A DNA stretch of 64,000 nt from assembly GCA_030765065.1 (NCBI GenBank), contig CM060985.1, forward strand, positions 4,712,001-4,776,000, given 5' to 3'. Under the pieces are notes generated by a model. It saw only the letters and a program-made list of their open reading frames with translations. It did not search any database and was not told where the DNA came from. This document shows positions 1,814 to 64,000 of the stretch, piece after piece. Source of the DNA: Deroplatys truncata. Its lineage: Eukaryota; Arthropoda; Insecta; Mantodea; Mantidae. Numbering within the stretch: position 1 is the first letter of the stretch; the number at the start of each line of letters is the position of its first letter. A program made the translations under genes and the position numbers.

Positions 1814-1814
1814 T

Positions 1815-28285: not shown

Positions 28286-28555
28286 GGGAGTTATCATTTT
28301 AGAAGGTCCTGGCTTCTGGTTTGGTGTGGTGTGAGTTATCATATTGGAAGGTCCTGGCTTCTGGTTTGGTGTGGTGGGAGTTATCATTTTAGAAGGTCCT
28401 GGCTTCTGGTTTGGTGTGGTGGGAGTTATCATATTGGAAGGTCCTGGCTTCTGGTTTGGTGTGGTGGGAGTTATCATTTTAGAAGGTCCTGGCTTCTGGT
28501 TTGGTGTGGTGGGAGTTATCATATTGGAAGGTCCTGGCTTCTGGTTTGGTGTGGT
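28286..28555. repeat. 90-bp dimeric higher-order repeat within satellite B
   Basis: Six successive units alternate between 'atcattttagaagg' and 'atcatattggaagg', giving three 90-bp dimers. Similar alternation of 'cttctagtttgg' and 'cttctggtttgg' is seen at about 27840-28200. Confidence 0.75.
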
Positions 28556-35029: not shown

Positions 35030-38000
35030 ATGTGTATAATGTAGACCTTGGTACTGTCCCTGCTTCTAGTTACAACAGCGAGTATGTTGCGTTATAATAC
35101 AACAGTTACTAGTATGTGTATAATGTAGACCCTGGTACTGTCCCCACTTCTAGTTACAACAGAGAGAATGTTGCGTTACAATACAACAGTTACTAGTATG
35201 TGTATAATGTAGACCTTGGTACTGCCCCTACTTCTAGTTACAACAGCGAGTATGTTGCGTTATAATACAACAGTTACTAGTATGTGTATAATGTAGACCT
35301 TGGTACTGCCCCTACTTCTAGTTACAACAGCGAGTATGTTGTGTTACAATACAACAGTTACTAGTATGTGTATAATGTAGACCTTGGTACTGTCCCTACT
35401 TCTAGTTACAACAGCGAGTATGTTGCGTTATAATACAACAGTTACTAGTATGTGTATAATGTAGACCTTGGTAGTGCCCCTACTTCTAGTTACAACAGCG
35501 AGTATGTTGTGTTACAATACAACAGTTACTAGTATGTGTATAATGTAGACCATGGTACTGCCCCTACTTCTAGTTACAACAGCGAGTATGTTGCGTTATA
35601 ATACCACAGTTACCAGTATGTGTATAATGTAGACCTTGGTACTGCCCCTACTTCTAGTTACAACAGCGAGTATGTTGCGTTATAATACAACAGTTACTAG
35701 TATGTGTATAATGTAGACCTTGGTAGTGCCCCTACTTCTAGTTACAACAGAGAGAATGTTGTGTTACAATACAACAGTTACTAGTATGTGTATAATGTAG
35801 ACCTTGGTACTGCCCCTACTTCTAGTTACAACAGCGAGTATGTTGTGTTAAAATACAACAGTTACTAGTATGTGTATAATGTAGACCTTGGTACTGTCCC
35901 TACTTCTAGTTACAACAGCGAGTATGTTGCGTTATAATACAACAGTTACTAGTATGTGTATAATGTAGACCTTGGTACTGTCCCTGCTTCTAGTTACAAC
36001 AGCGAGTATGTTGTGTTATAATACAACAGTTATCAGTATGTGAATGTCAGTCCTTGGTACTGTCGCTGCTTCTAGTTACAACACAGATTATGTTGTGTTA
36101 CAATACAACAGTTACTAGTATGTGTATAATGTAGAACTTGGTACTGTCCCTGCTTCTAGTTACAACAGAGAGAACGTTGCGTTATAATACAACAGTTATC
36201 AGTATGTGAATGATGTCAGACCTTGGTACTGTCCCTGCTTCTAGTTACAACAGAGAGAATGTTGCGTTATAATACAACAGTTATCAGTATGTGAATGATG
36301 TCAGACCTTGGTACTGTCCCTACTTCTAGTTACAACAGAGAGAACGTTGCGTTATAATACAACAGTTATCAGTATGTGAATGATGTCAGACCTTGGTACT
36401 GTCGCTGCTTCTAGTTACAACAGAGATTATGTTGTGTTACAATACAACAGTTACTAGTATGTGTATAATGTAGACCTTGGTACTGTCCCTGCTTCTAGTT
36501 ACAACAGAGAGAACGTTGCGTTATAATACAACAGTTATCAGTATGTGAATGATGTCAGACCTTGGTACTGTCCTTGCTTCTAGTTACAACAGAGAGAACG
36601 TTGCGTTATAATACAACAGTTATCAGTATGTGAATGTCAGTCCTTGGTAAGGTCGCTGCTTCTAGTTACAACAGAGATTATGTTGTGTTACAATACAACA
36701 GTTACTAGTATGTGTATAATGTAGACCTTGGTACTGTCCCTGCTTCTAGTTACAACAGAGATCATGTTGCGTTATAATACAACAGTTATCAGTATGTGAA
36801 TGATGTCAGACCTTGGTACTGTCCCTGCTTCTAGTTACAACAGAGAGAACGTTGCGTTATAATACAACAGTTATCAGTATGTGAATGATGTCAGACCTTG
36901 GTACTGTCGCTGCTTCTAGTTACAACAGAGATTATGTTGCATTATAATACAACAGTTACCAGTATGTGAATGATGTCAGACCTTGGTACTGTCGCTGCTT
37001 CTAGTTACAACAGAGATCATGTTGCGTTATAATACAACAGTTATCAGTATGTGAATGATGTCAGAACTTGGTACTGTCCCTGCTTCTAGTTACAACACAG
37101 ATTATGTTGTGTTACAATACAACAGTTACTAGTATGTGTATAATGTAGACCTTGGTACTGTCCCTGCTTCTAGTTACAACAGAGAGAATGTTGCGTTATA
37201 ATACAACAGTTATCAGTATGTGAATGATGTCAGACCTTGGTACTGTCCCTGCTTCTAGTTACAACAGAGAGAACGTTGCGTTATAATACAACAGTTATCA
37301 GTATGTGAATGATGTCAGACCTTGGTACTGTCCCTACTTCTAGTTACAACAGAGAGAACGTTGCGTTATAATACAACAGTTATCAGTATGTGAATGATGT
37401 CAGACCTTGGTACTGTCACTTCTTCTAGTTCCAACAGAGAGTATGTTGCGTTATAATACAACAGTTATCAGTATGTGAATGATGTCAGACCTTGGTACTG
37501 TCGCTGCTTCTAGTTACAACAGAGATTATGTTGCATTATAATACAACAGTTATCAGTATGTGAATGATGTCAGACCTTGGTACTGTCGCTGCTTCTAGTT
37601 ACAACAGAGATTATGTTGCATTATAATACAACAGTTACCAGTATGTGAATGATGTCAGACCTTGGAACTGTCGCTGCTTCTAGTTACAACAGAGATCATG
37701 TTGCGTTATAATACAACAGTTATCAGTATGTGAATGATGTCAGACCTTGGTACTGTCCCTGCTTCTAGTTACAACAGAGAGAACGTTGCGTTATAATACA
37801 ACAGTTATCAGTATGTGAATGATGTCAGACCTTGGTACTGTCCCTGCTTCTAGTTACAACAGAGAGAACGTTGCGTTATAATACAACAGTTATCAGTATG
37901 TGAATGATGTCAGACCTTGGTACTGTCGCTGCTTCTAGTTACAACAGAGATCATGTTGCGTTATAATACAACAGTTATCAGTATGTGAATGATGTCAGAC

Positions 38001-41000
38001 CTTGGTACTGTCACTGCTTCTAGTTACAACAGAGAGAACGTTGCGTTATAATACAACAGTTATCAGTATGTGAATGATGTCAGACCTTGGTACTGTCGCT
38101 GCTTCTAGTTACAACAGAGATTATGTTGCATTATAATACAACAGTTACCAGTATGTGAATGATGTCAGACCTTGGTACTGTCGCTACTTCTAGTTACAAC
38201 AGAGATTATGTTGCATTATAATACAACAGTGACCAGTATGTGAATGTCAGTCCTTGGTACTGTCGCTACTTCTAGTTACAACAGAGATCATGTTGCGTTA
38301 TAATACAACAGTTACCAGTATGTGAATGATGTCAGACCTTGGTACTGTCGCTGCTTCTAGTTACAACAGAGATCATGTTGCGTTACAATACAACAGTTAC
38401 CAGTATGTGAATGTCAGTCCTTGGTACTGTCGCTGCTTCTAGTTACAACAGAGATTATGTTGTGTTACAATACAACAGTTACTAGTATGTGAATGATGTC
38501 AGACCTTGGTACTGTCGCTGCTTCTAGTTACAACAGAGATTATGTTGTGTTACAATACAACAGTTACTAGTATGTGATTGTCAGTCCTTGGTACTGTCGC
38601 TGCTTCTAGTTACAACAGAGATTATGTTGTGTTACAATACAACAGTTACTAGTATGTGAATGATGTCAGACCTTGGTACTGTCGCTGCTTCTAGTTACAA
38701 CAGAGATTATGTTGTGTTACAATACAACAGTTACCAGTATGTGAATGTCAGTCCTTGGTACTGTCGCTGCTTCTAGTTACAACAGAGATTATGTTGTGTT
38801 ACAATACAACAGTTACTAGTATGTGAATGATGTCAGACCTTGGTACTGTCGCTGCTTCTAGTTACAACAGAGATTATGTTGTGTTACAATACAACAGTTA
38901 CCAGTATGTGAATGTCAGTCCTTGGTACTGTCGCTGCTTCTAGTTACAACAGAGATTATGTTGTGTTACAATACAACAGTTACTAGTATGTGAATGATGT
39001 CAGACCTTGGTACTGTCGCTGCTTCTAGTTACAACACAGATTATGTTGTGTTACAATACAACAGTTACTAGTATGTGAATGATGTCAGTCCTTGGTACTG
39101 TCGCTGCTTCTAGTTACAACAGAGATCATGTTGCGTTATAATACAACAGTTATCAGTATGTGAATGATGTCAGACCTTGGTACTGTCGCTGCTTCTAGTT
39201 ACAACAGAGATTATGTTGTGTTACAATACAACAGTTACTAGTATGTGTATAATGTAGACCTTGGTACTGTCCCTGCTACTAGTTACAACAGAGAGAACGT
39301 TGCGTTATAATACAACAGTTATCAGTATGTGAATGATGTCAGACCTTGGTACTGTCCCTACTTCTAGTTACAACAGAGAGTATGTTGCGTTACAATACAA
39401 CAGTTACTAGTATGTGTATAATGTAGACCTTGGTACTGTCCCTGCTTCTAGTTACAACAGAGAGAATGTTGCGTTATAATACAACAGTTATCAGTATGTG
39501 AATGATGTCAGACCTTGGTACTGTCCCTATTTCTAGTTACAACAGAGAGAACGTTGCGTTATAATACAACAGTTATCAGTATGTGAATGATGTCAGACCT
39601 TGGTACTGTCCCTACTGCTAGTTACAACAGAGAGTATGTTGCGTTACAATACAACAGTTACTAGTATGTGTATAATGTAGACCTTGGTACTGTCCCTGCT
39701 TCTAGTTACAACAGAGAGAATGTTGCGTTATAATACAACAGTTATCAGTATGTGAATGATGTCAGACCTTGGTACTGTCCCTGCTTCTAGTTACAACAGA
39801 GAGAACGTTGCGTTATAATACAACAGTTATCAGTATGTGAATGATGTCAGACCTTGGTACTGTCGCTGCTTCTAGTTACAACAGAGAGTATGTTGCGTTA
39901 CAATACAACAGTTATCAGTATGTGAATGATGTCAGACCTTGGTACTGTCGCTGCTTCTAGTTACAACAGAGATTATGTTGCGTTATAATACAACAGTTAT
40001 CAGTATGTGAATGATGTCAGACCTTGGTACTGTCGCTGCTTCTAGTTACAACAGAGATTATGTTGTGTTACAATACAACAGTTATCAGTATGTGAATGAT
40101 GTCAGACCTTGGTACTGTCGCTGCTTCTAGTTACAACAGGGATTATGTTGCATTATAATACAACAGTTACCAGTAGGTGAATGATGTCAGACCTTGGTAC
40201 TGTCGCTGCTTCTAGTTACAACAGAGATTATGTTGCATTATAATACAACAGTTACCAGTATGTGAATGATGTCAGACCTTGGTACTGTCGCTGCTTCTAG
40301 TTACAACAGAGATTATGTCGCATTATAATACAACAGTTACCAGTATGTGAATGATGTCAGACCTTGGTACTGTCGCTGCTTCTAGTTACAACAGAGATTA
40401 TGTTGCATTATAATACAACAGTTACCAGTATGTGAATGATGTCAGACCTTGGTACTGTCGCTGCTTCTAGTTACAACAGAGATTATGTTGCATTATAATA
40501 CAACAGTTACCAGTATGTGAATGATGTCAGACCTTGGTACTGTCGCTACTTCTAGTTACAACAGAGATTATGTTGCATTATAATACAACAGTTATCAGTA
40601 TGTGAATGTCAGTCCTTGGTACTGTCCCTTCTTCTAGTTACAACAGAGATTATGTTGCATTATAATACAACAGTTACCAGTATGTGAATGATGTCAGACC
40701 TTGGTACTGTCGCTGCTTCTAGTTACAACAGAGAGTATGTTGCGTTACAATACAACAGTTATCAGTATGTGAATGATCAAAGACCTTGGTACTGTCGCTG
40801 CTTCTAGTTACAACAGAGATCATGTTGCGTTATAATACAACAGTTACCAGTATGTGAATGTCAGTCCTTGGTACTGTCGCTACTTCTAGTTACAACAGAG
40901 AGTATGTTGCGTTACAATACAACAGTTACCAGTATTTGAATGATCAAAGACCTTGGTACTGTCGCTGCTTCTAGTTACATCAGAGATTACGTTGCGTTAT

Positions 41001-42337
41001 AACACAACAGTTACCAGTATGTGAATGATCTCAGACTCTGGTACTGTCGCTTCTTATAGTTACAACAGAGATTACGTTGCGTTACAATACAACAGTTCTC
41101 AGTATGTGTATATCAGACCGTGGTACTGCCCCCACTTATAGTTACAACAGAGAGTATGTTGCGTTACAATACAACAGTTCTCAGTATGTGTATATCAGAC
41201 CTTGGTACTGTCGCTTCTTCTAGTTACAACAGCGAGTACGTTGTGTTACAATACAACAGATACCAGTATGTGTATATCAGACCTTGGTACTGTCCCTGCT
41301 TATAGTTACAACAGAGAGTATGTTGTGTTACAATACAACAGTTATCAGTACGCGTATATCAGACCTTGGTACTGTCCCTGCTTCTAGTAAAAACAGCGAG
41401 TACGTTGTGTTACAATACAACAGTTATCAGTATGTGTATATCAGACCTTGGAACTGTCGCTGTTTCTAGTTACAACAGAGAGTATTTTGTGTTACAATAC
41501 AACAGATGCCAGTATGTGTATATCAGACCTTGGTACTGTCCCTTCTTCTAGTTACAACAGAGCGAAAGTTTCGTTATATTACAACAGTTAACAGTATGCG
41601 TATATCAGACCTTGGTACTGTCCCTGCTTCTAGTTACAACAGAGAGTATGTTGTGTTACAATACACCAGTTACCAGTATGTGTATATCAAACCTTGGGAC
41701 TGTCCCTTCTTCTAGTTACAAAAGAGCGTAAGTTTCGTTACAATATAACAGCTACATGTATGTGTATATCAGACCTTGGTACTGTCCCTGCTTCAAGTTA
41801 CAACAGAGAGTATGTTGTGTTAGAATACAACAGTTACCAGTATGTGTATATCAGACCTTAGTACTGTCCCTTCTTCTAGTTACAACAGAGCGTAAGTTAC
41901 GTTACAATACAACAGTTACCAGTATGTGTATATAAGTAATCGGTACTGTCCCTTTTTCTAGTTACAACAGAGCGTAAGTTTCTTTACAATACAACAGTTA
42001 CCAGTATGTGTATCTCAGACCTCGGTACTGTACCTTCTTCTAGTTACTACAGAGCGTAAGTTGTGTTACAATACAACACTTACCAGTATGTGAATGATCT
42101 CAGACCCTGGTACTGTCCCTGCTTCTAGTTACAACAGAGAGTATGTTTTGTTACAATACCAGAGTTAGTAGTGTGAATGTTCTCAGAACATGGTACTGTC
42201 GCTGCTTCTAGATACAACAGAGAGTATGTTGTGTTAGAATACAACAGTTACCAGTATGTGTATATCAGACCTTAGTACTGTCCCTTCTTCTAGTTACAAC
42301 AGAGCGTAAGTTTCGTTACAATACAACAGATACCAGT
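35030..42337. repeat. Satellite II super-unit 1 (7308 bp)
   Basis: The sequence from about 35030 starts again at 42338, an offset of 7308 bp. Matching rare markers are 'taataccacagttacc' (35603/42911 at the 'accacag'), 'ccttggtaaggtcgc' (36646/43954 at 'ggtaagg') and 'tactgtcacttcttctag' (37411/44719). The copies differ by a few substitutions up to about 38120, where super-unit 2 has about 680 bp (8 units) not present here. The super-unit ends inside a gtgtatatcagacc domain that is cut short at 42337. Confidence 0.88.
41005..42337. repeat. gtgtatatcagacc-type domain of satellite II, copy 1 (truncated)
   Basis: A run of 82-bp units with the joint 'gtgtatatcagacc', many private variants ('agagcgtaagtttcg', 'cagtacgcgtatatc', 'ccagagttagtagtgtg'), and more divergence between neighbouring units than in the rest of the array. 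It matches 50850-52180 and 60940-62265 with about three differences seen over 1.2 kb, and is cut off at 42337. Confidence 0.88.
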
Positions 42338-45300
42338 ATGTGTATAATGTAGACCTTGGTACTGTCCCTGCTTCTAGTTACAACAGCGAGTATGTTGCGT
42401 TATAATACAACAGTTACTAGTATGTGTATAATGTAGACCCTGGTACTGTCCCCACTTCTAGTTACAACAGAGAGAATGTTGCGTTACAATACAACAGTTA
42501 CTAGTATGTGTATAATGTAGACCTTGGTACTGCCCCTACTTCTAGTTACAACAGCGAGTATGTTGCGTTATAATACAACAGTTACTAGTATGTGTATAAT
42601 GTAGACCTTGGTACTGCCCCTACTTCTAGTTACAACAGCGAGTATGTTGTGTTACAATACAACAGTTACTAGTATGTGTATAATGTAGACCTTGGTACTG
42701 TCCCTACTTCTAGTTACAACAGCGAGTATGTTGCGTTATAATACAACAGTTACTAGTATGTGTATAATGTAGACCTTGGTAGTGCCCCTACTTCTAGTTA
42801 CAACAGCGAGTATGTTGTGTTACAATACAACAGTTACTAGTATGTGTATAATGTAGACCATGGTACTGCCCCTACTTCTAGTTACAACAGCGAGTATGTT
42901 GCGTTATAATACCACAGTTACCAGTATGTGTATAATGTAGACCTTGGTACTGCCCCTACTTCTAGTTACAACAGCGAGTATGTTGTGTTACAATACAACA
43001 GTTACTAGTATGTGTATAATGTAGACCTTGGTACTGCCCCTACTTCTAGTTACAACAGAGAGAATGTTGTGTTACAATACAACAGTTACTAGTATGTGTA
43101 TAATGTAGACCTTGGTACTGCCCCTACTTCTAGTTACAACAGCGAGTATGTTGTGTTAAAATACAACAGTTACTAGTATGTGTATAATGTAGACCTTGGT
43201 ACTGTCCCTACTTCTAGTTACAACAGCGAGTATGTTGCGTTATAATACAACAGTTACTAGTATGTGTATAATGTAGACCTTGGTACTGTCCCTGCTTCTA
43301 GTTACAACAGCGAGTATGTTGTGTTATAATACAACAGTTATCAGTATGTGAATGTCAGTCCTTGGTACTGTCGCTGCTTCTAGTTACAACACAGATTATG
43401 TTGTGTTACAATACAACAGTTACTAGTATGTGTATAATGTAGAACTTGGTACTGTCCCTGCTTCTAGTTACAACAGAGAGAACGTTGCGTTATAATACAA
43501 CAGTTATCAGTATGTGAATGATGTCAGACCTTGGTACTGTCCCTGCTTCTAGTTACAACAGAGAGAATGTTGCGTTATAATACAACAGTTATCAGTATGT
43601 GAATGATGTCAGACCTTGGTACTGTCCCTACTTCTAGTTACAACAGAGAGAACGTTGCGTTATAATACAACAGTTATCAGTATGTGAATGATGTCAGACC
43701 TTGGTACTGTCGCTGCTTCTAGTTACAACAGAGATTATGTTGTGTTACAATACAACAGTTACTAGTATGTGTATAATGTAGACCTTGGTACTGTCCCTGC
43801 TTCTAGTTACAACAGAGAGAACGTTGCGTTATAATACAACAGTTATCAGTATGTGAATGATGTCAGACCTTGGTACTGTCCTTGCTTCTAGTTACAACAG
43901 AGAGAACGTTGCGTTATAATACAACAGTTATCAGTATGTGAATGTCAGTCCTTGGTAAGGTCGCTGCTTCTAGTTACAACAGAGATTATGTTGTGTTACA
44001 ATACAACAGTTACTAGTATGTGTATAATGTAGACCTTGGTACTGTCCCTGCTTCTAGTTACAACAGAGATCATGTTGCGTTATAATACAACAGTTATCAG
44101 TATGTGAATGATGTCAGACCTTGGTACTGTCCCTGCTTCTAGTTACAACACAGAGAACGTTGCGTTATAATACAACAGTTATCAGTATGTGAATGATGTC
44201 AGACCTTGGTACTGTCGCTGCTTCTAGTTACAACAGAGATTATGTTGCATTATAATACAACAGTTACCAGTATGTGAATGATGTCAGACCTTGGTACTGT
44301 CGCTGCTTCTAGTTACAACAGAGATCATGTTGCGTTATAATACAACAGTTATCAGTATGTGAATGATGTCAGACCTTGGTACTGTCCCTGCTTCTAGTTA
44401 CAACACAGATTATGTTGTGTTACAATACAACAGTTACTAGTATGTGTATAATGTAGACCTTGGTACTGTCCCTGCTTCTAGTTACAACAGAGAGAATGTT
44501 GCGTTATAATACAACAGTTATCAGTATGTGAATGATGTCAGACCTTGGTACTGTCCCTGCTTCTAGTTACAACAGAGAGAACGTTGCGTTATAATACAAC
44601 AGTTATCAGTATGTGAATGATGTCAGACCTTGGTACTGTCCCTACTTCTAGTTACAACAGAGAGAACGTTGCGTTATAATACAACAGTTATCAGTATGTG
44701 AATGATGTCAGACCTTGGTACTGTCACTTCTTCTAGTTCCAACAGAGAGTATGTTGCGTTATAATACAACAGTTATCAGTATGTGAATGATGTCAGACCT
44801 TGGTACTGTCGCTGCTTCTAGTTACAACAGAGATTATGTTGCATTATAATACAACAGTTATCAGTATGTGAATGATGTCAGACCTTGGTACTGTCGCTGC
44901 TTCTAGTTACAACAGAGATTATGTTGCATTATAATACAACAGTTACCAGTATGTGAATGATGTCAGACCTTGGAACTGTCGCTGCTTCTAGTTACAACAG
45001 AGATCATGTTGCGTTATAATACAACAGTTATCAGTATGTGAATGATGTCAGACCTTGGTACTGTCCCTGCTTCTAGTTACAACAGAGAGAACGTTGCGTT
45101 ATAATACAACAGTTATCAGTATGTGAATGATGTCAGACCTTGGTACTGTCCCTGCTTCTAGTTACAACAGAGAGAACGTTGCGTTATAATACAACAGTTA
45201 TCAGTATGTGAATGATGTCAGACCTTGGTACTGTCGCTGCTTCTAGTTACAACAGAGATCATGTTGCGTTATAATACAACAGTTATCAGTATGTGAATGA

Positions 45301-45964
45301 TGTCAGACCTTGGTACTGTCACTGCTTCTAGTTACAACAGAGAGAACGTTGCGTTATAATACAACAGTTATCAGTATGTGAATGATGTCAGACCTTGGTA
45401 CTGTCGCTGCTTCTAGTTACAACAGAGATTATGTTGCGTTATAATACAACAGTTACCAGTATGTGAATGATGTCAGACCTTGGTACTGTCGCTGCTTCTA
45501 GTTACAACAGAGAGTATGTTGCGTTACAATACAACAGTTACCAGTATGTGAATGATGTCAGACCTTGGTACTGTCGCTGCTTCTAGTTACAACAGAGATT
45601 ATGTTGCGTTATAATACAACAGTTACCAGTATGTGAATGATGTCAGACCTTGGTACTGTCGCTGCTTCTAGTTACAACAGAGATCATGTTGCGTTATAAT
45701 ACAACAGTTATCAGTATGTGAATGATGTCAGACCTTGGTACTGTCGCTGCTTCTAGTTACAACAGAGAGAACGTTGCGTTATAATACAACAGTTATCAGT
45801 ATGTGAATGATGTCAGACCTTGGTACTGTCCCTACTTCTTGTTACAACAGAGAGAACGTTGCGTTATAATACAACAGTTATCAGTATGTGAATGATGTCA
45901 GACCTTGGTACTGTCGTTTCTTCTAGTTCCAACAGAGAGAACGTTGCGTTATAATACAACATTT

Positions 45965-48900
45965 ACCAGTATGTGAATGATGTCAGACCTTGGTACTGTC
46001 GCTGCTTCTAGTTACAACAGAGATCATGTTGCGTTATAATACAACAGTTACCAGTATGTGAATGATGTCAGACCTTGGTACTGTCGCTGCTTCTAGTTAC
46101 AACAGAGATTATGTTGCATTATAATACAACAGTTACCAGTATGTGAATGATGTCAGACCTTGGTACTGTCGCTACTTCTAGTTACAACAGAGATTATGTT
46201 GCATTATAATACAACAGTGACCAGTATGTGAATGTCAGTCCTTGGTACTGTCGCTACTTCTAGTTACAACAGAGATCATGTTGCGTTATAATACAACAGT
46301 TACCAGTATGTGAATGATGTCAGACCTTGGTACTGTCGCTGCTTCTAGTTACAACAGAGATCATGTTGCGTTACAATACAACAGTTACCAGTATGTGAAT
46401 GTCAGTCCTTGGTACTGTCGCTGCTTCTAGTTACAACAGAGATTATGTTGTGTTACAATACAACAGTTACTAGTATGTGAATGATGTCAGACCTTGGTAC
46501 TGTCGCTGCTTCTAGTTACAACAGAGATTATGTTGTGTTACAATACAACAGTTACTAGTATGTGATTGTCAGTCCTTGGTACTGTCGCTGCTTCTAGTTA
46601 CAACAGAGATTATGTTGTGTTACAATACAACAGTTACTAGTATGTGAATGATGTCAGACCTTGGTACTGTCGCTGCTTCTAGTTACAACAGAGATTATGT
46701 TGTGTTACAATACAACAGTTACCAGTATGTGAATGTCAGTCCTTGGTACTGTCGCTGCTTCTAGTTACAACAGAGATTATGTTGTGTTACAATACAACAG
46801 TTACTAGTATGTGAATGATGTCAGACCTTGGTACTGTCGCTGCTTCTAGTTACAACAGAGATTATGTTGTGTTACAATACAACAGTTACCAGTATGTGAA
46901 TGTCAGTCCTTGGTACTGTCGCTGCTTCTAGTTACAACAGAGATTATGTTGTGTTACAATACAACAGTTACTAGTATGTGAATGATGTCAGACCTTGGTA
47001 CTGTCGCTGCTTCTAGTTACAACACAGATTATGTTGTGTTACAATACAACAGTTACTAGTATGTGAATGATGTCAGTCCTTGGTACTGTCGCTGCTTCTA
47101 GTTACAACAGAGATCATGTTGCGTTATAATACAACAGTTATCAGTATGTGAATGATGTCAGACCTTGGTACTGTCCCTGCTTCTAGTTACAACAGAGACA
47201 ACGTTGCGTTATAATACAACAGTTATCAGTATGTGAATGATGTCAGACCTTGGTACTGTCCCTACTTCTAGTTACAACAGAGAGAACGTTGCGTTATAAT
47301 ACAACAGTTATCAGTATGTGAATGATGTCAGACCTTGGTACTGTCCCTACTTCTAGTTACAACAGAGAGTATGTTGCGTTACAATACAACAGTTACTAGT
47401 ATGTGTATAATGTAGACCTTGGTACTGTCCCTGCTTCTAGTTACAACAGAGAGAATGTTGCGTTATAATACAACAGTTATCAGTATGTGAATGATGTCAG
47501 ACCTTGGTACTGTCCCTACTTCTAGTTACAACAGAGAGAACGTTGCGTTATAATACAACAGTTATCAGTATGTGAATGATGTCAGACCTTGGTACTGTCC
47601 CTACTGCTAGTTACAACAGAGAGTATGTTGCGTTACAATACAACAGTTACTAGTATGTGTATAATGTAGACCTTGGTACTGTCCCTGCTTCTAGTTACAA
47701 CAGAGAGAATGTTGCGTTATAATACAACAGTTATCAGTATGTGAATGATGTCAGACCTTGGTACTGTCCCTGCTTCTAGTTACAACAGAGAGAACGTTGC
47801 GTTATAATACAACAGTTATCAGTATGTGAATGATGTCAGACCTTGGTACTGTCGCTGCTTCTAGTTACAACAGAGATCATGTTGCGTTATAATACAACAG
47901 TTACCAGTATGTGAATGATGTCAGACCTTGGTACTGTCGCTGCTTCTAGTTACAACAGAGATTATGTTGCATTATAATACAACAGTTACCAGTATGTGAA
48001 TGATGTCAGACCTTGGTACTGTCGCTACTTCTAGTTACAACAGAGATTATGTTGCATTATAATACAACAGTGACCAGTATGTGAATGTCAGTCCTTGGTA
48101 CTGTCGCTACTTCTAGTTACAACAGAGATCATGTTGCGTTATAATACAACAGTTACCAGTATGTGAATGATGTCAGACCTTGGTACTGTCGCTGCTTCTA
48201 GTTACAACAGAGATCATGTTGCGTTACAATACAACAGTTACCAGTATGTGAATGTCAGTCCTTGGTACTGTCGCTGCTTCTAGTTACAACAGAGATTATG
48301 TTGTGTTACAATACAACAGTTACTAGTATGTGAATGATGTCAGACCTTGGTACTGTCGCTGCTTCTAGTTACAACAGAGATTATGTTGTGTTACAATACA
48401 ACAGTTACTAGTATGTGATTGTCAGTCCTTGGTACTGTCGCTGCTTCTAGTTACAACAGAGATTATGTTGTGTTACAATACAACAGTTACTAGTATGTGA
48501 ATGATGTCAGACCTTGGTACTGTCGCTGCTTCTAGTTACAACAGAGATTATGTTGTGTTACAATACAACAGTTACCAGTATGTGAATGTCAGTCCTTGGT
48601 ACTGTCGCTGCTTCTAGTTACAACAGAGATTATGTTGTGTTACAATACAACAGTTACTAGTATGTGAATGATGTCAGACCTTGGTACTGTCGCTGCTTCT
48701 AGTTACAACAGAGATTATGTTGTGTTACAATACAACAGTTACCAGTATGTGAATGTCAGTCCTTGGTACTGTCGCTGCTTCTAGTTACAACAGAGATTAT
48801 GTTGTGTTACAATACAACAGTTACTAGTATGTGAATGATGTCAGACCTTGGTACTGTCGCTGCTTCTAGTTACAACACAGATTATGTTGTGTTACAATAC

Positions 48901-50849: not shown

Positions 50850-53454
50850 CAGTTACCAGTATGTGAATGATCTCAGACTCTGGTACTGTCGCTTCTTATA
50901 GTTACAACAGAGATTACGTTGCGTTACAATACAACAGTTCTCAGTATGTGTATATCAGACCGTGGTACTGCCCCTACTTATAGTTACAACAGAGAGTATG
51001 TTGCGTTACAATACAACAGTTCTCAGTATGTGTATATCAGACCTTGGTACTGTCGCTTCTTCTAGTTACAACAGCGAGTACGTTGTGTTACAATACAACA
51101 GATACCAGTATGTGTATATCAGACCTTGGTACTGTCCCTGCTTATAGTTACAACAGAGAGTATGTTGTGTTACAATACAACAGTTATCAGTACGCGTATA
51201 TCAGACCTTGGTACTGTCCCTGCTTCTAGTAAAAACAGCGAGTACGTTGTGTTACAATACAACAGTTATCAGTATGTGTATATCAGACCTTGGAACTGTC
51301 GCTGTTTCTAGTTACAACAGAGAGTATTTTGTGTTACAATACAACAGATGCCAGTATGTGTATATCAGACCTTGGTACTGTCCCTTCTTCTAGTTACAAC
51401 AGAGCGAAAGTTTCGTTATATTACAACAGTTAACAGTATGCGTATATCAGACCTTGGTACTGTCCCTGCTTCTAGTTACAACAGAGAGTATGTTGTGTTA
51501 CAATACACCAGTTACCAGTATGTGTATATCAAACCTTGGGACTGTCCCTTCTTCTAGTTACAAAAGAGCGTAAGTTTCGGTACAATATAACAGCTACATG
51601 TATGTGTATATCAGACCTTGGTACTGTCCCTGCTTCAAGTTACAACAGAGAGTATGTTGTGTTAGAATACAACAGTTACCAGTATGTGTATATCAGACCT
51701 TAGTACTGTCCCTTCTTCTAGTTACAACAGAGCGTAAGTTACGTTACAATACAACAGTTACCAGTATGTGTATATCAGTAATCGGTACTGTCCCTTTTTC
51801 TAGTTACAACAGAGCGTAAGTTTCTTTACAATACAACAGTTACCAGTATGTGTATCTCAGACCTCGGTACTGTACCTTCTTCTAGTTACTACAGAGCGTA
51901 AGTTGTGTTACAATACAACACTTACCAGTATGTGAATGATCTCAGACCCTGGTACTGTCCCTGCTTCTAGTTACAACAGAGAGTATGTTTTGTTACAATA
52001 CCAGAGTTAGTAGTGTGAATGTTCTCAGAACATGGTACTGTCGCTGCTTCTAGATACAACAGAGAGTATGTTGTGTTAGAATACAACAGTTACCAGTATG
52101 TGTATATCAGACCTTAGTACTGTCCCTTCTTCTAGTTACAACAGAGCGTAAGTTTCGTTACAATACAACAGATACCAGTATGTGTATATCAGACCTTGGT
52201 ACTGTCCCTGCTTCTAGTTACAACAGAGAGTATGTTGTGTTACAATACAACAGTTACCAGTATGTGTATATCAGACCTTGGAACTGTCGCTGTTTCTAGT
52301 TACAACAGAGAGTATTTTGTGTTACAATACAACAGTTACCAGTGTGTGTATATCAAACCTTGGTACTGTCGCTGCTTCTAGATACAACAGAGAGTATGTT
52401 GTGTTAGAATACAACAGTTACCAGTATGTGTATATCAGACCTTAGTACTGTCCCTTCTTCTAGTTACAGCAGAGCGTAAGTTTCGTTACAATACAACAGT
52501 TACCAGTATGTGTATATATGACCTTGGTACTGTCCCTTCTTCTAGGTACAACACAGAGTAAGTTTCGTTACAATACAACAGTTACAGTATGTGTATATCA
52601 GACCTCGGTACTGTCCCTTTTTCTAGTTACAACAGAGGGTAAGTTTCTTTACAATACAACAGTTACCAGTATGTGTATATCAGACTTCGGTACTGTCCTT
52701 TCTTCTAGTTACAACAGAGCGTAAGTTGTGTTACAATACAACAGTCACCAGCATGTGAATGATCTCAGAACTTGGTACTGTCGCTGCTTCTAGTTACAAC
52801 AGAGAGTATGTTTTGTTACAATACAACAGTTACTAGTATGTGAATGTTCTCAGACCCTGGTACTGTCGCTGCTTCTAGTTACATCAGAGGGTATGTTTTG
52901 TTACAATACAACAATTAACAGTATGTGTATGATGTCAGACCTTGGTACTGTCGCTGCTTCTAGTTACAGCAGAGATTATGTTGCGTTACAATACAACAGT
53001 TACCAGTATGTGAATGACCTCAGACCCTGGTACTGTTCCTGCTTCTAGTTATAACAGAGATTATGTTGCGTTACAATACAACAGTTATCAGTATGTGAAT
53101 GATGTCAGACGTTGGTACTGTCTCTTCTTCTACTTACAACAGAAATATGTTGCGTTACAATACAACAGTATTCAGTATGTGTATATCAGACCTTGGTACT
53201 GTCCCCGATTTTAGTTACAACAGTGAGTATGTTGTGCTACAATACAACAGTTACCAGTATGTGAACGATGTCAGACCTTGGTACTGTCCCTTCTTCTAGT
53301 TACAACAGAGAGTATGTTGTGTTACAATACAACAGTTATCTGTATGTGCATGATGTCAGACCTTAGTACTGTCCCTTCTTCTAGTTCCAACAGAGAGTAT
53401 GTTGCGTTACAATACAACAGTTATCAGTATGTGAATGATGTCAGACCTTGGTAT
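50850..53454. repeat. gtgtatatcagacc-type domain of satellite II, copy 2
   Basis: This is the complete domain, about 2.6 kb. It is internally heterogeneous, with 82-bp units and some 85-bp units near its right end. It is the counterpart of 60940-63542 at an offset of 10,088 bp. Confidence 0.88.
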
Positions 53455-54373
53455 TGTCCCGGCTTCTAGTTACAACAGAGAGAACGTTGCGTTATAATAC
53501 AACAGTTATCAGTATGTGAATGATGTCAGACCTTGGTACTGTCCTTGCTTCTAGTTACAACAGAGAGAACGTTGCGTTATAATACAACAGTTATCAGTAT
53601 GTGAATGTCAGTCCTTGGTAAGGTCGCTGCTTCTAGTTACAACAGAGATTATGTTGTGTTACAATACAACAGTTACTAGTATGTGTATAATGTAGACCTT
53701 GGTACTGTCCCTGCTTCTAGTTACAACAGAGATCATGTTGCGTTATAATACAACAGTTATCAGTATGTGAATGATGTCAGACCTTGGTACTGTCCCTGCT
53801 TCTAGTTACAACAGAGAGAACGTTGCGTTATAATACAACAGTTATCAGTATGTGAATGATGTCAGACCTTGGTACTGTCGCTGCTTCTAGTTACAACAGA
53901 GATTATGTTGCATTATAATACAACAGTTACCAGTATGTGAATGATGTCAGACCTTGGTACTGTCGCTGCTTCTAGTTACAACAGAGATCATGTTGCGTTA
54001 TAATACAACAGTTATCAGTATGTGAATGATGTCAGACCTTGGTACTGTCCCTGCTTCTAGTTACAACACAGATTATGTTGTGTTACAATACAACAGTTAC
54101 TAGTATGTGTATAATGTAGACCTTGGTACTGTCCCTGCTTCTAGTTACAACAGAGAGAATGTTGCGTTATAATACAACAGTTATCAGTATGTGAATGATG
54201 TCAGACCTTGGTACTGTCCCTGCTTCTAGTTACAACAGAGACAACGTTGCGTTATAATACAACAGTTATCAGTATGTGAATGATGTCAGACCTTGGTACT
54301 GTCCCTACTTCTAGTTACAACAGAGAGAACGTTGCGTTATAATACAACAGTTATCAGTATGTGAATGATGTCA

Positions 54374-57300
54374 GACCTTGGTACTGTCACTTCTTCTAGT
54401 TCCAACAGAGAGTATGTTGCGTTATAATACAACAGTTATCAGTATGTGAATGATGTCAGACCTTGGTACTGTCGCTGCTTCTAGTTACAACAGAGATTAT
54501 GTTGCATTATAATACAACAGTTATCAGTATGTGAATGATGTCAGACCTTGGTACTGTCGCTGCTTCTAGTTACAACAGAGATTATGTTGCATTATAATAC
54601 AACAGTTACCAGTATGTGAATGATGTCAGACCTTGGAACTGTCGCTGCTTCTAGTTACAACAGAGATCATGTTGCGTTATAATACAACAGTTATCAGTAT
54701 GTGAATGATGTCAGACCTTGGTACTGTCCCTGCTTCTAGTTACAACAGAGAGAACGTTGCGTTATAATACAACAGTTATCAGTATGTGAATGATGTCAGA
54801 CCTTGGTACTGTCCCTGCTTCTAGTTACAACAGAGAGAACGTTGCGTTAAAATACAACAGTTATCAGTATGTGAATGATGTCAGACCTTGGTACTGTCGC
54901 TGCTTCTAGTTACAACAGAGATCATGTTGCGTTATAATACAACAGTTATCAGTATGTGAATGATGTCAGACCTTGGTACTGTCACTGCTTCTAGTTACAA
55001 CAGAGAGAACGTTGCGTTATAATACAACAGTTATCAGTATGTGAATGATGTCAGACCTTGGTACTGTCGCTGCTTCTAGTTACAACAGAGATTATGTTGC
55101 GTTATAATACAACAGTTACCAGTATGTGAATGATGTCAGACCTTGGTACTGTCGCTGCTTCTAGTTACAACAGAGAGTATGTTGCGTTACAATACAACAG
55201 TTACCAGTATGTGAATGATGTCAGACCTTGGTACTGTCGCTGCTTCTAGTTACAACAGAGATTATGTTGCGTTATAATACAACAGTTACCAGTATGTGAA
55301 TGATGTCAGACCTTGGTACTGTCGCTGCTTCTAGTTACAACAGAGATCATGTTGCGTTATAATACAACAGTTATCAGTATGTGAATGATGTCAGACCTTG
55401 GTACTGTCGCTGCTTCTAGTTACAACAGAGAGAACGTTGCGTTATAATACAACAGTTATCAGTATGTGAATGATGTCAGACCTTGGTACTGTCCCTACTT
55501 CTTGTTACAACAGAGAGAACGTTGCGTTATAATACAACAGTTATCAGTATGTGAATGATGTCAGACCTTGGTACTGTCGTTTCTTCTAGTTCCAACAGAG
55601 AGAACGTTGCGTTATAATACAACATTTACCAGTATGTGAATGATGTCAGACCTTGGTACTGTCGCTGCTTCTAGTTACAACAGAGATCATGTTGCGTTAT
55701 AATACAACAGTTACCAGTATGTGAATGATGTCAGACCTTGGTACTGTCGCTGCTTCTAGTTACAACAGAGATTATGTTGCATTATAATACAACAGTTACC
55801 AGTATGTGAATGATGTCAGACCTTGGTACTGTCGCTACTTCTAGTTACAACAGAGATTATGTTGCATTATAATACAACAGTGACCAGTATGTGAATGTCA
55901 GTCCTTGGTTATCGCTACTTCTAGTTACAACAGAGATCATGTTGCGTTATAATACAACAGTTACCAGTATGTGAATGATGTCAGACCTTGGTACTGTCGC
56001 TGCTTCTAGTTACAACAGAGATCATGTTGCGTTACAATAAAACAGTTACCAGTATGTGAATGTCAGTCCTTGGTACTGTCGCTGCTTCTAGTTACAACAG
56101 AGATTATGTTGTGTTACAATACAACAGTTACTAGTATGTGAATGATGTCAGACCTTGGTACTGTCGCTGCTTCTAGTTACAACAGAGATTATGTTGTGTT
56201 ACAATACAACAGTTACTAGTATGTGATTGTCAGTCCTTGGTACTGTCGCTGCTTCTAGTTACAACAGAGATTATGTTGTGTTACAATACAACAGTTACTA
56301 GTATGTGAATGATGTCAGACCTTGGTACTGTCGCTGCTTCTAGTTACAACAGAGATTATGTTGTGTTACAATACAACAGTTACCAGTATGTGAATGTCAG
56401 TCCTTGGTACTGTCGCTGCTTCTAGTTACAACAGAGATTATGTTGTGTTACAATACAACAGTTACTAGTATGTGAATGATGTCAGACCTTGGTACTGTCG
56501 CTGCTTCTAGTTACAACAGAGATTATGTTGTGTTACAATACAACAGTTACCAGTATGTGAATGTCAGTCCTTGGTACTGTCGCTGCTTCTAGTTACAACA
56601 GAGATTATGTTGTGTTACAATACAACAGTTACTAGTATGTGAATGATGTCAGACCTTGGTACTGTCGCTGCTTCTAGTTACAACACAGATTATGTTGTGT
56701 TACAATACAACAGTTACTAGTATGTGAATGATGTCAGTCCTTGGTACTGTCGCTGCTTCTAGTTACAACAGAGATCATGTTGCGTTATAATACAACAGTT
56801 ATCAGTATGTGAATGATGTCAGACCTTGGTACTGTCCCTGCTTCTAGTTACAACAGAGACAACGTTGCGTTATAATACAACAGTTATCAGTATGTGAATG
56901 ATGTCAGACCTTGGTACTGTCCCTACTTCTAGTTACAACAGAGAGAACGTTGCGTTATAATACAACAGTTATCAGTATGTGAATGATGTCAGACCTTGGT
57001 ACTGTCACTTCTTCTAGTTCCAACAGAGAGTATGTTGCGTTATAATACAACAGTTATCAGTATGTGAATGATGTCAGACCTTGGTACTGTCGCTGCTTCT
57101 AGTTACAACAGAGATTATGTTGCATTATAATACAACAGTTATCAGTATGTGAATGATGTCAGACCTTGGTACTGTCGCTGCTTCTAGTTACAACAGAGAT
57201 TATGTTGCATTATAATACAACAGTTACCAGTATGTGAATGATGTCAGACCTTGGAACTGTCGCTGCTTCTAGTTACAACAGAGATCATGTTGCGTTATAA

Positions 57301-59456
57301 TACAACAGTTATCAGTATGTGAATGATGTCAGACCTTGGTACTGTCCCTGCTTCTAGTTACAACAGAGAGAACGTTGCGTTATAATACAACAGTTATCAG
57401 TATGTGAATGATGTCAGACCTTGGTACTGTCCCTGCTTCTAGTTACAACAGAGAGAACGTTGCGTTATAATACAACAGTTATCAGTATGTGAATGATGTC
57501 AGACCTTGGTACTGTCGCTGCTTCTAGTTACAACAGAGATCATGTTGCGTTATAATACAACAGTTATCAGTATGTGAATGATGTCAGACCTTGGTACTGT
57601 CACTGCTTCTAGTTACAACAGAGAGAACGTTGCGTTATAATACAACAGTTATCAGTATGTGAATGATGTCAGACCTTGGTACTGTCGCTGCTTCTAGTTA
57701 CAACAGAGATTATGTTGCGTTATAATACAACAGTTACCAGTATGTGAATGATGTCAGACCTTGGTACTGTCGCTGCTTCTAGTTACAACAGAGAGTATGT
57801 TGCGTTACAATACAACAGTTACCAGTATGTGAATGATGTCAGACCTTGGTACTGTCGCTGCTTCTAGTTACAACAGAGATTATGTTGCGTTATAATACAA
57901 CAGTTACCAGTATGTGAATGATGTCAGACCTTGGTACTGTCGCTGCTTCTAGTTACAACAGAGATCATGTTGCGTTATAATACAACAGTTATCAGTATGT
58001 GAATGATGTCAGACCTTGGTACTGTCGCTGCTTCTAGTTACAACAGAGAGAACGTTGCGTTATAATACAACAGTTATCAGTATGTGAATGATGTCAGACC
58101 TTGGTACTGTCCCTACTTCTTGTTACAACAGAGAGAACGTTGCGTTATAATACAACAGTTATCAGTATGTGAATGATGTCAGACCTTGGTACTGTCGTTT
58201 CTTCTAGTTCCAACAGAGAGAACGTTGCGTTATAATACAACATTTACCAGTATGTGAATGATGTCAGACCTTGGTACTGTCGCTGCTTCTAGTTACAACA
58301 GAGATCATGTTGCGTTATAATACAACAGTTACCAGTATGTGAATGATGTCAGACCTTGGTACTGTCGCTGCTTCTAGTTACAACAGAGATTAGGTTGCAT
58401 TATAATACAACAGTTACCAGTATGTGAATGATGTCAGACCTTGGTACTGTCGCTACTTCTAGTTACAACAGAGATTATGTTGCATTATAATACAACAGTG
58501 ACCAGTATGTGAATGTCAGTCCTTGGTACTGTCGCTACTTCTAGTTACAACAGAGATCATGTTGCGTTATAATACAACAGTTACCAGTATGTGAATGATG
58601 TCAGACCTTGGTACTGTCGCTGCTTCTAGTTACAACAGAGATCATGTTGCGTTACAATACAACAGTTACCAGTATGTGAATGTCAGTCCTTGGTACTGTC
58701 GCTGCTTCTAGTTACAACAGAGATTATGTTGTGTTACAATACAACAGTTACTAGTATGTGAATGATGTCAGACCTTGGTACTGTCGCTGCTTCTAGTTAC
58801 AACAGAGATTATGTTGTGTTACAATACAACAGTTACTAGTATGTGATTGTCAGTCCTTGGTACTGTCGCTGCTTCTAGTTACAACAGAGATTATGTTGTG
58901 TTACAATACAACAGTTACTAGTATGTGAATGATGTCAGACCTTGGTACTGTCGCTGCTTCTAGTTACAACAGAGATTATGTTGTGTTACAATACAACAGT
59001 TACCAGTATGTGAATGTCAGTCCTTGGTACTGTCGCTGCTTCTAGTTACAACAGAGATTATGTTGTGTTACAATACAACAGTTACTAGTATGTGAATGAT
59101 GTCAGACCTTGGTACTGTCGCTGCTTCTAGTTACAACAGAGATTATGTTGTGTTACAATACAACAGTTACTAGTATGTGAATGTCAGTCCTTGGTACTGT
59201 CGCTGCTTCTAGTTACAACAGAGATTATGTTGTGTTACAATACAACAGTTACTAGTATGTGAATGATGTCAGACCTTGGTACTGTCGCTGCTTCTAGTTA
59301 CAACACAGATTATGTTGTGTTACAATACAACAGTTACTAGTATGTGAATGATGTCAGTCTTTGGTACTGTCGCTGCTTCTAGTTACAACAGAGATCATGT
59401 TGCGTTATAATACAACAGTTATCAGTATGTGAATGATGTCAGACCTTGGTACTGTC
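54374..59456. repeat. Local tandem duplication in satellite II, 2618-bp period, two copies
   Basis: 54374-56991 is repeated from 56992 to about 59456. The markers are 'tactgtcacttcttctag' (54382/57000) and 'cagtgaccagtatg' (55882/58500). Private changes mark single copies: 'ccttggttatcgc' near 55905 and 'gattaggttgc' near 58390. The duplication is absent from super-unit 2, so it is younger than the super-unit. Confidence 0.85.
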
Positions 59457-60939
59457 GCTGCTTCTAGTTACAACAGAGATTATGTTGTGTTACAATACAA
59501 CAGTTACTAGTATGTGTATAATGTAGACCTTGGTACTGTCCCTGCTTCTAGTTACAACAGAGAGAACGTTGCGTTATAATACAACAGTTATCAGTATGTG
59601 AATGATGTCAGACCTTGGTACTGTCCCTACTTCTAGTTACAACAGAGAGTATGTTGCGTTACAATACAACAGCTACTAGTATGTGTATAATGTAGACCTT
59701 GGTACTGTCCCTGCTTCTAGTTACAACAGAGAGAATGTTGCGTTATAATACAACAGTTATCAGTATGTGAATGATGTCAGACCTTGGTACTGTCCCTGCT
59801 TCTAGTTACAACAGAGAGAACGTTGCGTTATAATACAACAGTTATCAGTATGTGAATGATGTCAGACCTTGGTACTGTCGCTGCTTCTAGTTATAACAGA
59901 GAGTATGTTGCGTTACAATACAACAGTTATCAGTATGTGAATGATGTCAGACCTTGGTACTGTCGCTGCTTCTAGTTACAACAGAGATTATGTTGTGTTA
60001 CAATACAACAGTTATCAGTATGTGAATGATGTCAGACCTTGGTACTGTCGCTGCTTCTAGTTACAACAGGGATTATGTTGCATTATAATACAACAGTTAC
60101 CAGTAGGTGAATGATGTCAGACCTTGGTACTGTCGCTGCTTCTAGTTACAACAGAGATTATGTTGCATTATAATACAACAGTTACCAGTATGTGAATGAT
60201 GTCAGACCTTGGTACTGTCGCTGCTTCTAGTTACAACAGAGATTATGTTGCATTACAATACAACAGTTACCAGTATGTGAATGATGTCAGACCTTGGTAC
60301 TGTCGCTGCTTCTAGTTACAACAGAGATTATGTTGCATTATAATACAACAGTTACCAGTATGTGAATGATGTCAGACCTTGGTACTGTCGCTGCTTCTAG
60401 TTACAACAGAGATTATGTTGCATTATAATACAACAGTTACCAGTATGTGAATGATGTCAGACCTTGGTACTGTTGCTACTTCTAGTTACAACAGAGATTA
60501 TGTTGCATTATAATACAACAGTTATCAGTATGTGAATGTCAGTCCTTGGTACTGTCCCTTCTTCTAGTTACAACAGAGATTATGTTGCATTATAATACAA
60601 CAGTTACCAGTATGTGAATGATGTCAGACCTTGGTACTGTCGCTGCTTCTAGTTACAACAGAGAGTATGTTGCGTTACAATACAACAGTTATCAGTATGT
60701 GAATGATCAAAGACCTTGGTACTGTCGCTGCTTCTAGTTACAACAGAGATCATGTTGCGTTATAATACAACAGTTACCAGTATGTGAATGTCAGTCCTTG
60801 GTACTGTCGCTACTTCTAGTTACAACAGAGAGTATGTTGCGTTACAATACAACAGTTACCAGTATTTGAATGATCAAAGACCTTGGTACTGTCGCTGCTT
60901 CTAGTTACATCAGAGATTACGTTGCGTTATAACACAACA

Positions 60940-63542
60940 GTTACCAGTATGTGAATGATCTCAGACTCTGGTACTGTCGCTTCTTATAGTTACAACAGAG
61001 ATTACGTTGCGTTACAATACAACAGTTCTCAGTATGTGTATATCAGACCGTGGTACTGCCCCTACTTATAGTTACAACAGAGAGTATGTTGCGTTACAAT
61101 ACAACAGTTCTCAGTATGTGTATATCAGACCTTGGTACTGTCGCTTCTTCTAGTTACAACAGCGAGTACGTTGTGTTACAATACAACAGATACCAGTATG
61201 TGTATATCAGACCTTGGTACTGTCCCTGCTTATAGTTACAACAGAGAGTATGTTGTGTTACAATACAACAGTTATCAGTACGCGTATATCAGACCTTGGT
61301 ACTGTCCCTGCTTCTAGTAAAAACAGCGAGTACGTTGTGTTACAATACAACAGTTATCAGTATGTGTATATCAGACCTTGGAACTGTCGCTGTTTCTAGT
61401 TACAACAGAGAGTATTTTGTGTTACAATACAACAGATGCCAGTATGTGTATATCAGACCTTGGTACTGTCCCTTCTTCTAGTTACAACAGAGCGAAAGTT
61501 TCGTTATATTACAACAGTTAACAGTATGCGTATATCAGACCTTGGTACTGTCCCTGCTTCTAGTTACAACAGAGAGTATGTTGTGTTACAATACACCAGT
61601 TACCAGTATGTGTATATCAAACCTTGGGACTGTCCCTTCTTCTAGTTACAAAAGAGCGTAAGTTTCGTTACAATATAACAGCTACATGTATGTGTATATC
61701 AGACCTTGGTACTGTCCCTGCTTCAAGTTACAACAGAGAGTATGTTGTGTTAGAATACAACAGTTACCAGTATGTGTATATCAGACCTTAGTACTGTCCC
61801 TTCTTCTAGTTACAACAGAGCGTAAGTTACGTTACAATACAACAGTTACCAGTATGTGTATATCAGTAATCGGTACTGTCCCTTTTTCTAGTTACAACAG
61901 AGCGTAAGTTTCTTTACAATACAACAGTTACCAGTATGTGTATCTCAGACCTCGGTACTGTACCTTCTTCTAGTTACTACAGAGCGTAAGTTGTGTTACA
62001 ATACAACACTTACCAGTATGTGAATGATCTCAGACCCCGGTACTGTCCCTGCTTCTAGTTACAACAGAGAGTATGTTTTGTTACAATACCAGAGTTAGTA
62101 GTGTGAATGTTCTCAGAACATGGTACTGTCGCTGCTTCTTGATACAACAGAGAGTATGTTGTGTTAGAATACAACAGTTACCAGTATGTGTATATCAGAC
62201 CTTAGTACTGTCCCTTCTTCTAGTTACAACAGAGCGTAAGTTTCGTTACAATACAACAGATACCAGTATGTGTATATCAGACCTTGGTACTGTCCCTGCT
62301 TCTAGTTACAACAGAGAGTATGTTGTGTTACAATACAACAGTTACCAGTATGTGTATATCAGACCTTGGAACTGTCGCTGTTTCTAGTTACAACAGAGAG
62401 TATTTTGTGTTACAATACAACAGTTACCAGTATGTGTATATCAAACCTTGGTACTGTCGCTGCTTCTAGATACAACAGAGAGTATGTTGTGTTAGAATAC
62501 AACAGTTACCAGTATGTGTATATCAGACCTTAGTACTGTCCCTTCTTCTAGTTACAGCAGAGCGTAAGTTTCGTTACAATACAACAGTTACCAGTATGTG
62601 TATATATGACCTTGGTACTGTCCCTTCTTCTAGGTACAACACAGAGTAAGTTTCGTTACAATACAACAGTTACAGTATGTGTATATCAGACCTCGGTACT
62701 GTCCCTTTTTCTAGTTACAACAGAGGGTAAGTTTCTTTACAATACAACAGTTACCAGTATGTGTATATCAGACTTCGGTACTGTCCTTTCTTCTAGTTAC
62801 AACAGAGCGTAAGTTGTGTTACAATACAACAGTCACCAGCATGTGAATGATCTCAGAACTTGGTACTGTCGCTGCTTCTAGTTACAACAGAGAGTATGTT
62901 TTGTTACAATACAACAGTTACTAGTATGTGAATGTTCTCAGACCCTGGTACTGTCGCTGCTTCTAGTTACATCAGAGGGTATGTTTTGTTACAATACAAC
63001 AATTAACAGTATGTGTATGATGTCAGACCTTGGTACTGTCGCTGCTTCTAGTTACAGCAGAGATTATGTTGCGTTACAATACAACAGTTACCAGTATGTG
63101 AATGACCTCAGACCCTGGTACTGTTCCTGCTTCTAGTTATAACAGAGATTATGTTGCGTTACAATACAACAGTTATCAGTATGTGAATGATGTCAGACGT
63201 TGGTACTGTCTCTTCTTCTACTTACAACAGAAATATGTTGCGTTACAATACAACAGTATTCAGTATGTGTATATCAGACCTTGGTACTGTCCCCGATTTT
63301 AGTTACAACAGTGAGTATGTTGTGCTACAATACAACAGTTACCAGTATGTGAACGATGTCAGACCTTGGTACTGTCCCTTCTTCTAGTTACAACAGAGAG
63401 TATGTTGTGTTACAATACAACAGTTATCTGTATGTGCATGATGTCAGACCTTAGTACTGTCCCTTCTTCTAGTTCCAACAGAGAGTATGTTGCGTTACAA
63501 TACAACAGTTATCAGTATGTGAATGATGTCAGACCTTGGTAT
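60940..63542. repeat. gtgtatatcagacc-type domain of satellite II, copy 3
   Basis: Complete copy of the domain at 50850-53454. Visible differences include 'gaccccgg' here for 'gaccctgg', and 'cttcttgatac' here for 'cttctagatac'. Confidence 0.88.
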
Positions 63543-64000
63543 TGTCCCTGCTTCTAGTTACAACAGAGAGAACGTTGCGTTATAATACAACAGTTATCAG
63601 TATGTGAATGATGTCAGACCTTGGTACTGTCCTTGCTTCTAGTTACAACAGAGAGAACGTTGCGTTATAATACAACAGTTATCAGTATGTGAATGTCAGT
63701 CCTTGGTAAGGTCGCTGCTTCTAGTTACAACAGAGATTATGTTGTGTTACAATACAACAGTTACTAGTATGTGTATAATGTAGACCTTGGTACTGTCCCT
63801 GCTTCTAGTTACAACAGAGATCATGTTGCGTTATAATACAACAGTTATCAGTATGTGAATGATGTCAGACCTTGGTACTGTCCCTGCTTCTAGTTACAAC
63901 AGAGAGAACGTTGCGTTATAATACAACAGTTATCAGTATGTGAATGATGTCAGACCTTGGTACTGTCGCTGCTTCTAGTTACAACAGAGATTATGTTGCA

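Follow-up and report, generated by a model that had tools for sequence, protein, structure and literature searches.

We analyzed a stretch of 64000 nucleotides from the mantis Deroplatys truncata (contig CM060985.1, here called C11, positions 4712001 to 4776000; "the window" below) and found that a satellite array within it contains large, nested super-units. These super-units are higher-order repeats (HORs) of the satellite, and they are not of the constant-period type. Our preferred explanation, to which we assign a probability of about 0.78, is that they arose by recent tandem duplication of multikilobase blocks; unequal sister-chromatid exchange or break-induced replication is the most likely cause. 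The assembly comprises 4.29 Gb in 818 contigs, with C11 accounting for 200 Mb. For array mapping, we added 40 kb upstream and 120 kb downstream of the window (224 kb in total). Unless a contig is named, coordinates are window positions, and all features lie on the forward strand. Tandem Repeats Finder (TRF) and k-mer coverage place the 82/85-bp satellite array between 31421 and about 149383 (about 118 kb); the window holds its left part (31421 to 64000).

Four super-units lie in tandem between 35007 and 71005. As read from the string of monomers and from the diagonal scan described below, they span 35007 to 42346 (super-unit 1; 7340 bp, 87 monomers), 42347 to 53481 (super-unit 2; 11135 bp, 133 monomers), 53482 to 63569 (super-unit 3; 10088 bp, 120 monomers), and 63570 to 71005 (super-unit 4; 7436 bp, 88 monomers, of which 63570 to 64000 falls in the window). 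These lengths do not follow one constant period. The copies of a unit are more alike than the monomers inside it, they run head to tail in the same order and in phase, and HORs are recognized by two or more adjacent copies, of which there are four here. The original prediction, made from the window sequence, had proposed super-units of 7 to 11 kb; block 2 measures 11.1 kb, the super-units end at about 71005 and not at 64000, and the array itself continues to about 149383. Past 71005 the sequence switches to older array sequence.

The super-units are distinguished by gains and losses of internal segments. Super-unit 1 is without an 8-monomer (680-bp) stretch that is present in blocks 2 and 3 and varied in block 4. 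Block 2 alone carries a doubled 1853-bp stretch (45858 to 49867; 45858 to 48014 matches 47711 to 49867 with 12 differences in 2157 bp), and block 3 alone a doubled 2618-bp stretch (54121 to 58527; 54121 to 55909 matches 56739 to 58527 with 5 differences in 1789 bp); both duplications had been anticipated from the sequence. Blocks 2, 3, and 4 share a closing domain, and the copy of this domain in block 1 is cut short by a junction (junction 1, below) that leads back to the beginning of block 2. The domain is 2.6 kb long and rich in 82-bp monomers; the copy at 50850 to 53467 is matched by a second full copy at 60938 to 63555, with 5 of 2618 bases differing. The near-identity of these two copies had been correctly noted; the copy begins at 60938, however, rather than at 60940. 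No inverted repeats of at least 40 bp were found in 35000 to 64000.

To describe the copying between blocks, we used a diagonal scan of 31421 to 77000 that recorded ungapped copies only, as stretches with at least 98% identity over 300 bp. The scan returned 432 ungapped segments of at least 300 bp. Long pairs include, besides the two internal duplications, 49734 to 54666 with 59822 to 64754 (20 differences in 4933 bp), 49099 to 53518 with 66571 to 70990 (14 in 4420), 59796 to 63622 with 67180 to 71006 (18 in 3827), 35007 to 38246 with 42315 to 45554 (13 in 3240), and 43780 to 46246 with 53443 to 55909 (5 in 2467). Across the 14 segments of at least 1686 bp and the next in size (1632 bp, 99.26%), identity ranges from 99.11 to 99.80%, and exact repeats within the array reach 1910 bp at most. 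Transitions make up 12 of the 20 differences in the longest pair, and five pairs pooled gave 37 transitions and 32 transversions. The proposed offsets of 7308, 9663, and 10088 bp are among those with the most shared 50- to 400-mers, and the rare marker "ggtaagg" occurs exactly where it had been reported (36646, 43954, 53617, and 63705) and nowhere else on the plus strand of the window, the strand that was scanned.

Individual monomers tell the same story at a finer scale. Splitting 31421 to 73300 at a fuzzy anchor yielded 496 segments with 172 distinct sequences, of which 85 occur a single time. Most monomers are 85 bp long (277 of 496), followed by 82 bp (116), 84 bp (84), and other lengths (19); the unit is thus mostly 85 bp and not 82 bp as first described, and 82-bp monomers are characteristic of the 2.6-kb domain. 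Adjacent monomers have a mean identity of 91.4% and are exact matches in 0.8% of cases, which bears out the earlier statement that neighboring units differ far more than the block copies do. Corresponding monomers in ten block pairs, by comparison, have mean identities of 99.6 to 99.9%. In the unit-by-unit comparison that had been suggested as a check, up to 22 consecutive monomers were identical and identically ordered at two places, compared with no run above 3 in 100 shuffles of the order. The claim that whole multikilobase blocks, and not single units, were copied therefore holds: dozens of distinct monomers retain their order and phase across copies, long ungapped copies differ by 0.2 to 0.9% versus about 9% for neighbors, and the five mapped junctions are in phase. 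That the copying was "recent" holds in relative terms, with no absolute date attached.

The boundaries between super-units can be read as switches between two parent sequences. Junction 1 (42335 to 42346) joins late monomer 64 to early monomer 5, and a two-parent switch with a 12-bp tract explains 900 of 901 bases around it. At junction 2 (53455 to 53481), a monomer resembling monomer 85/87 is joined to monomer 20 (999 of 1001 bases; 27-bp switch tract). Junction 3 (63543 to 63569) is the same join 10088 bp further on; one choice of parent explains all 901 bases with a tract of 20 bp, and the other explains 900 of 901 with a tract of 27 bp. The switches of the internal duplications are similarly well explained, with 1000 of 1001 bases and a 57-bp tract (47820 to 47876) for the 1853-bp duplication and 1200 of 1201 bases and a 230-bp tract (56777 to 57006) for the 2618-bp duplication. 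Monomers around the five mapped junctions are 82 to 85 bp long, so monomer phase is kept at every one of them. Among random in-phase pairs (n = 5000), the identity tract has a median length of 13 bp, with 57 bp at the 90th percentile; against this background the 2618-bp duplication stands out, since 0.06% of such pairs reach its 230-bp tract.

Recent block copies are concentrated in the four super-units. When the array was divided into 500-bp windows and each was scored for an ungapped match of at least 99% elsewhere in the array, 90% of windows in 35007 to 71000 had such a match, compared with 0.2% in 31421 to 35006 and 14% in 71001 to 149383. The left shoulder (31421 to 35006) thus consists of the same satellite and has very few recent block copies. 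The right part contains separate block duplications, mostly older ones (94 to 99% identity), such as 114443 to 117084 with 126508 to 129149 (98.4%) and 84131 to 85887 with 90992 to 92748 (97.2%), together with a young one (79498 to 80718 with 88743 to 89963, 99.3%). The super-units are therefore a young core beside an older array, sharply bounded against it at either end, and one mode of growth is seen at several ages. Within the older right part, at about 78080 to 102470, monomers carry inserted TA-dinucleotide runs of variable length.

Two marker sequences are also private to this array. With one mismatch allowed, the genome contains a 61-base sequence with the "ggtaagg" marker at four places, all in this array, and a 61-mer of the 2.6-kb domain was found seven times at up to two mismatches (three exact, two with one mismatch, and two with two), again all in this array. 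Junction 1 occurs once genome-wide at up to two mismatches. The left flank gave one full-length match; the other matches, among the 40 scored of 4074 candidates, were partial, with identities that did not exceed 90%. Searching with 901 bp of block 2 revealed further arrays of the family on C1 (at 316, 320, 322.6, and 324.6 Mb), C3, C9, and C11 at 5.37 Mb, with at most 84% identity among the matches listed; common words were skipped in this search, and the numbers of matches are lower bounds. One of the arrays on C1, of which 30 kb was examined, has a repeated offset of 3600 and a 3600-bp super-unit of its own (C1:319926363-319938622 with C1:319929963-319942222, 24 differences in 12260 bp). The super-units therefore seem to have been made locally, and block copying appears to be both local and recurrent.

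A series of events could account for this arrangement. Misaligned sister chromatids, or a broken end that re-invades, would pair with an offset of at least one monomer, and the whole interval between the paired sites would then be duplicated by exchange or break-induced copying. An event of this kind would have joined monomer 85/87 to monomer 20; the resulting duplicate could have mispaired again, yielding a third copy with the same join, and a separate event would have joined monomer 64 to monomer 5. The old shoulders would have kept older, unhomogenized monomers. No function beyond that of satellite DNA is proposed, and none is needed to explain the structure.

Several observations weigh against this explanation or narrow what it can claim. 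The tracts at junctions 1 to 3 (12, 27, and 20 to 27 bp) do not exceed lengths commonly seen at random in-phase pairs; a preference for homology at these junctions, which we considered, is thus not supported, and it is phase alone that points to homology-driven exchange. Phase, in turn, would be kept by any mechanism that uses the repeat itself. What we claim is that pairing was guided by the repeat, and we do not claim that it demanded long identity. The variation among four copies of a 2481-bp stretch is star-like, with all 18 variable sites being singletons and no site split 2:2, which fits a single burst equally well. Finally, all of the evidence comes from the assembly of one individual.

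In the burst alternative, an excised circle or a stalled fork would have produced a concatemer in one episode, by rolling-circle copying or repeated template switching, and the blocks would have been laid down at once. Junctions 2 and 3 are an identical join, as rolling-circle copying predicts for successive copies; junction 1 is different, however, and unequal exchange gives the same outcome. The star-like pattern recurs on C1, where 15 of 17 variable sites in six copies of the super-unit are singletons, and a single copy carries eight of these. Simulation did not uphold the pattern as proof of a burst, since a neutral coalescent yields such stars with probabilities of 0.21 to 0.27 for four copies and 0.17 to 0.33 for six. 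Because junction 1 and all four block lengths differ, more than one event would be needed in any case, and we consider a one-episode origin rather unlikely. The broader proposal that arrays of this satellite grow by rare bursts, which lay down several 7- to 11-kb blocks (87 to 133 monomers) almost at once and independently on different chromosomes, in place of steady unequal exchange, strikes us as similarly doubtful; if it were true, the star-like differences in the two arrays would be its trace.

The differences between copies also bear on whether the blocks are instead old duplications that gene conversion has kept alike. Six of the 18 sites in the four 2481-bp copies fall within 98 bp of block 3 (59819 to 59916), and their 21-mers recur elsewhere in the array; this segment is likely a patch of exchange with another monomer. 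In a crude test over nine overlapping block pairs, both alleles were found elsewhere in the array for 65 of 103 differences (by pair, 12/13, 11/19, 1/5, 6/8, 12/12, 3/5, 1/10, 6/13, and 13/18), compared with 121 to 175 of 1000 (12 to 18%) for random changes, a test in which homologous copies were counted too. With homologous positions excluded, 17 of 40 singleton differences matched other monomers; these comprised 13 of 20 clustered differences, some of which lie at block edges, and 4 of the 20 that are isolated, against 227 of 1500 in the random-change control. This refined test left unused the 35 of 75 polarizable sites that were not singletons, and it also excluded an uncounted number of sites with tied allele counts. 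We therefore withdrew the idea that most differences reflect gene conversion. As judged from these sequence comparisons, some patches look like products of exchange and most isolated differences look like new mutations. That isolated differences match at about the random rate supports recent copying over old blocks kept alike by conversion, which would moreover have had to maintain about 99% identity among all four blocks across 36 kb without affecting the shoulders. We regard this alternative as improbable. Scarcely likely, too, is an assembly artifact in which the assembler placed one block several times. Satellite arrays are prone to such errors, but the copies here differ by substitutions (0.2 to 0.9% over ungapped stretches as long as 4933 bp) and are told apart by doubled stretches and a missing one, with no exact repeat beyond the 1910 bp given above. 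In addition, the left flank and junction 1 are single in the searches described above, and the 224 kb contain no N runs.

Recent tandem duplication of blocks, the reading we prefer, has parallels in other satellite systems. The alpha satellite of primates has a 171-bp monomer. A 59mer alpha-satellite HOR on orangutan chromosome 13, called the largest in primates, has monomers that diverge by 22.4% and unit copies that diverge by 0.1% (PMC11276891). The mantis array resembles the primate HORs described there, in particular the cascading and variant types, in combining divergent monomers with near-identical unit copies (here about 9% versus 0.2 to 0.9%) and in having variant copies with gained or lost monomers. 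Unlike those HORs, it has an 82/85-bp monomer, only four copies, and 87 to 133 monomers per unit versus 59. A scan of the window for the CENP-B box, using its core pattern, gave no exact match; in this respect the array is unlike alpha satellite, and there is no evidence of a centromere here.

HORs reportedly occur in satellites of the grasshopper Pyrgomorpha conica. For the grasshopper Vandiemenella, satellite HORs were inferred from dotplots of assembled read clusters (PMC7754599), and that system matches ours in being an insect satellite with HOR organization for which the same mechanisms are proposed; the mantis HORs differ in being laid out over 36 kb of assembly, junctions included. In leaf beetles, satellite HORs are described as dimers and trimers (PMC8122249). 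The HORs of Drosophila melanogaster tandem arrays (R1 elements and histone clusters) are attributed to unequal exchange (PMC12400953), a common explanation for such repeats; cycles of amplification and deletion that leave heterogeneous HORs are common to both systems, whereas ours is a simple satellite in one assembly. According to a further study, break-induced replication changes HOR copy number in human centromeric arrays, with experimental support from a human cell line (PMC11034957), whereas the mantis array is known from assembly sequence alone. The super-units are real, relatively recent, and ordinary in kind: this kind of system is known and its principle is textbook, and what is unusual is the number of monomers per super-unit and the legibility of the junctions. 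The array is a well-resolved case in which single duplication junctions and the decay that followed can be read, and the old shoulders provide its internal control. Paired with the C1 array, and with a small number of further copies or individuals added, it could serve to separate steady exchange from burst amplification.

The window and its flank contain four different satellites in a span of about 190 kb on C11. In the window, TRF identified an 85-bp satellite at 7057 to 12056 and a 45-bp satellite at 14403 to 28970, in addition to the 82/85-bp satellite from 31421 on; an array with a 47-bp unit lies upstream of the window (C11:4672008-4688210). The 45-bp satellite has a tandem block duplication of 3420 bp (76 units) at 14846 to 21397, with 3 differences in 3132 bp, and this pair is more alike than any long pair of the 82/85-bp array. 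Block copies are also present in the first 85-bp satellite (8385 to 9405 with 10748 to 11768, 98.8%). The consensus units of the 45-bp and 82/85-bp satellites have CCT(A)GCTTCTAGTT in common, and their local alignment score was reached by 0.4% of 500 shuffles, this being one of 12 comparisons and uncorrected; a common origin of the two satellites is possible on this evidence.

At the start of the window, a stretch near 30 to 1470 recurs inverted near 3850 to 4560, as judged by eye, and TRF detected a 230-bp unit repeated 3.6 times at 621 to 1468; the region from 1 to 4600 has the look of a mobile element bounded by long inverted termini. TTAGG occupies the final 10 kb at the far end of C11 (1996 counts), in keeping with an insect or another arthropod that has TTAGG repeats, and no TTAGG run was found at the starts of C11, C1, and C2. 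Contig C16 exceeds 672 Mb, a size that hints at a large X chromosome like that of bush-crickets. Lastly, C16 carries clusters of nuclear mitochondrial COX1-like copies (e.g., at 672.46 to 672.97, 611.23 to 611.36, and 638.0 to 638.3 Mb), some of them at similar spacings, as if tandemly duplicated.

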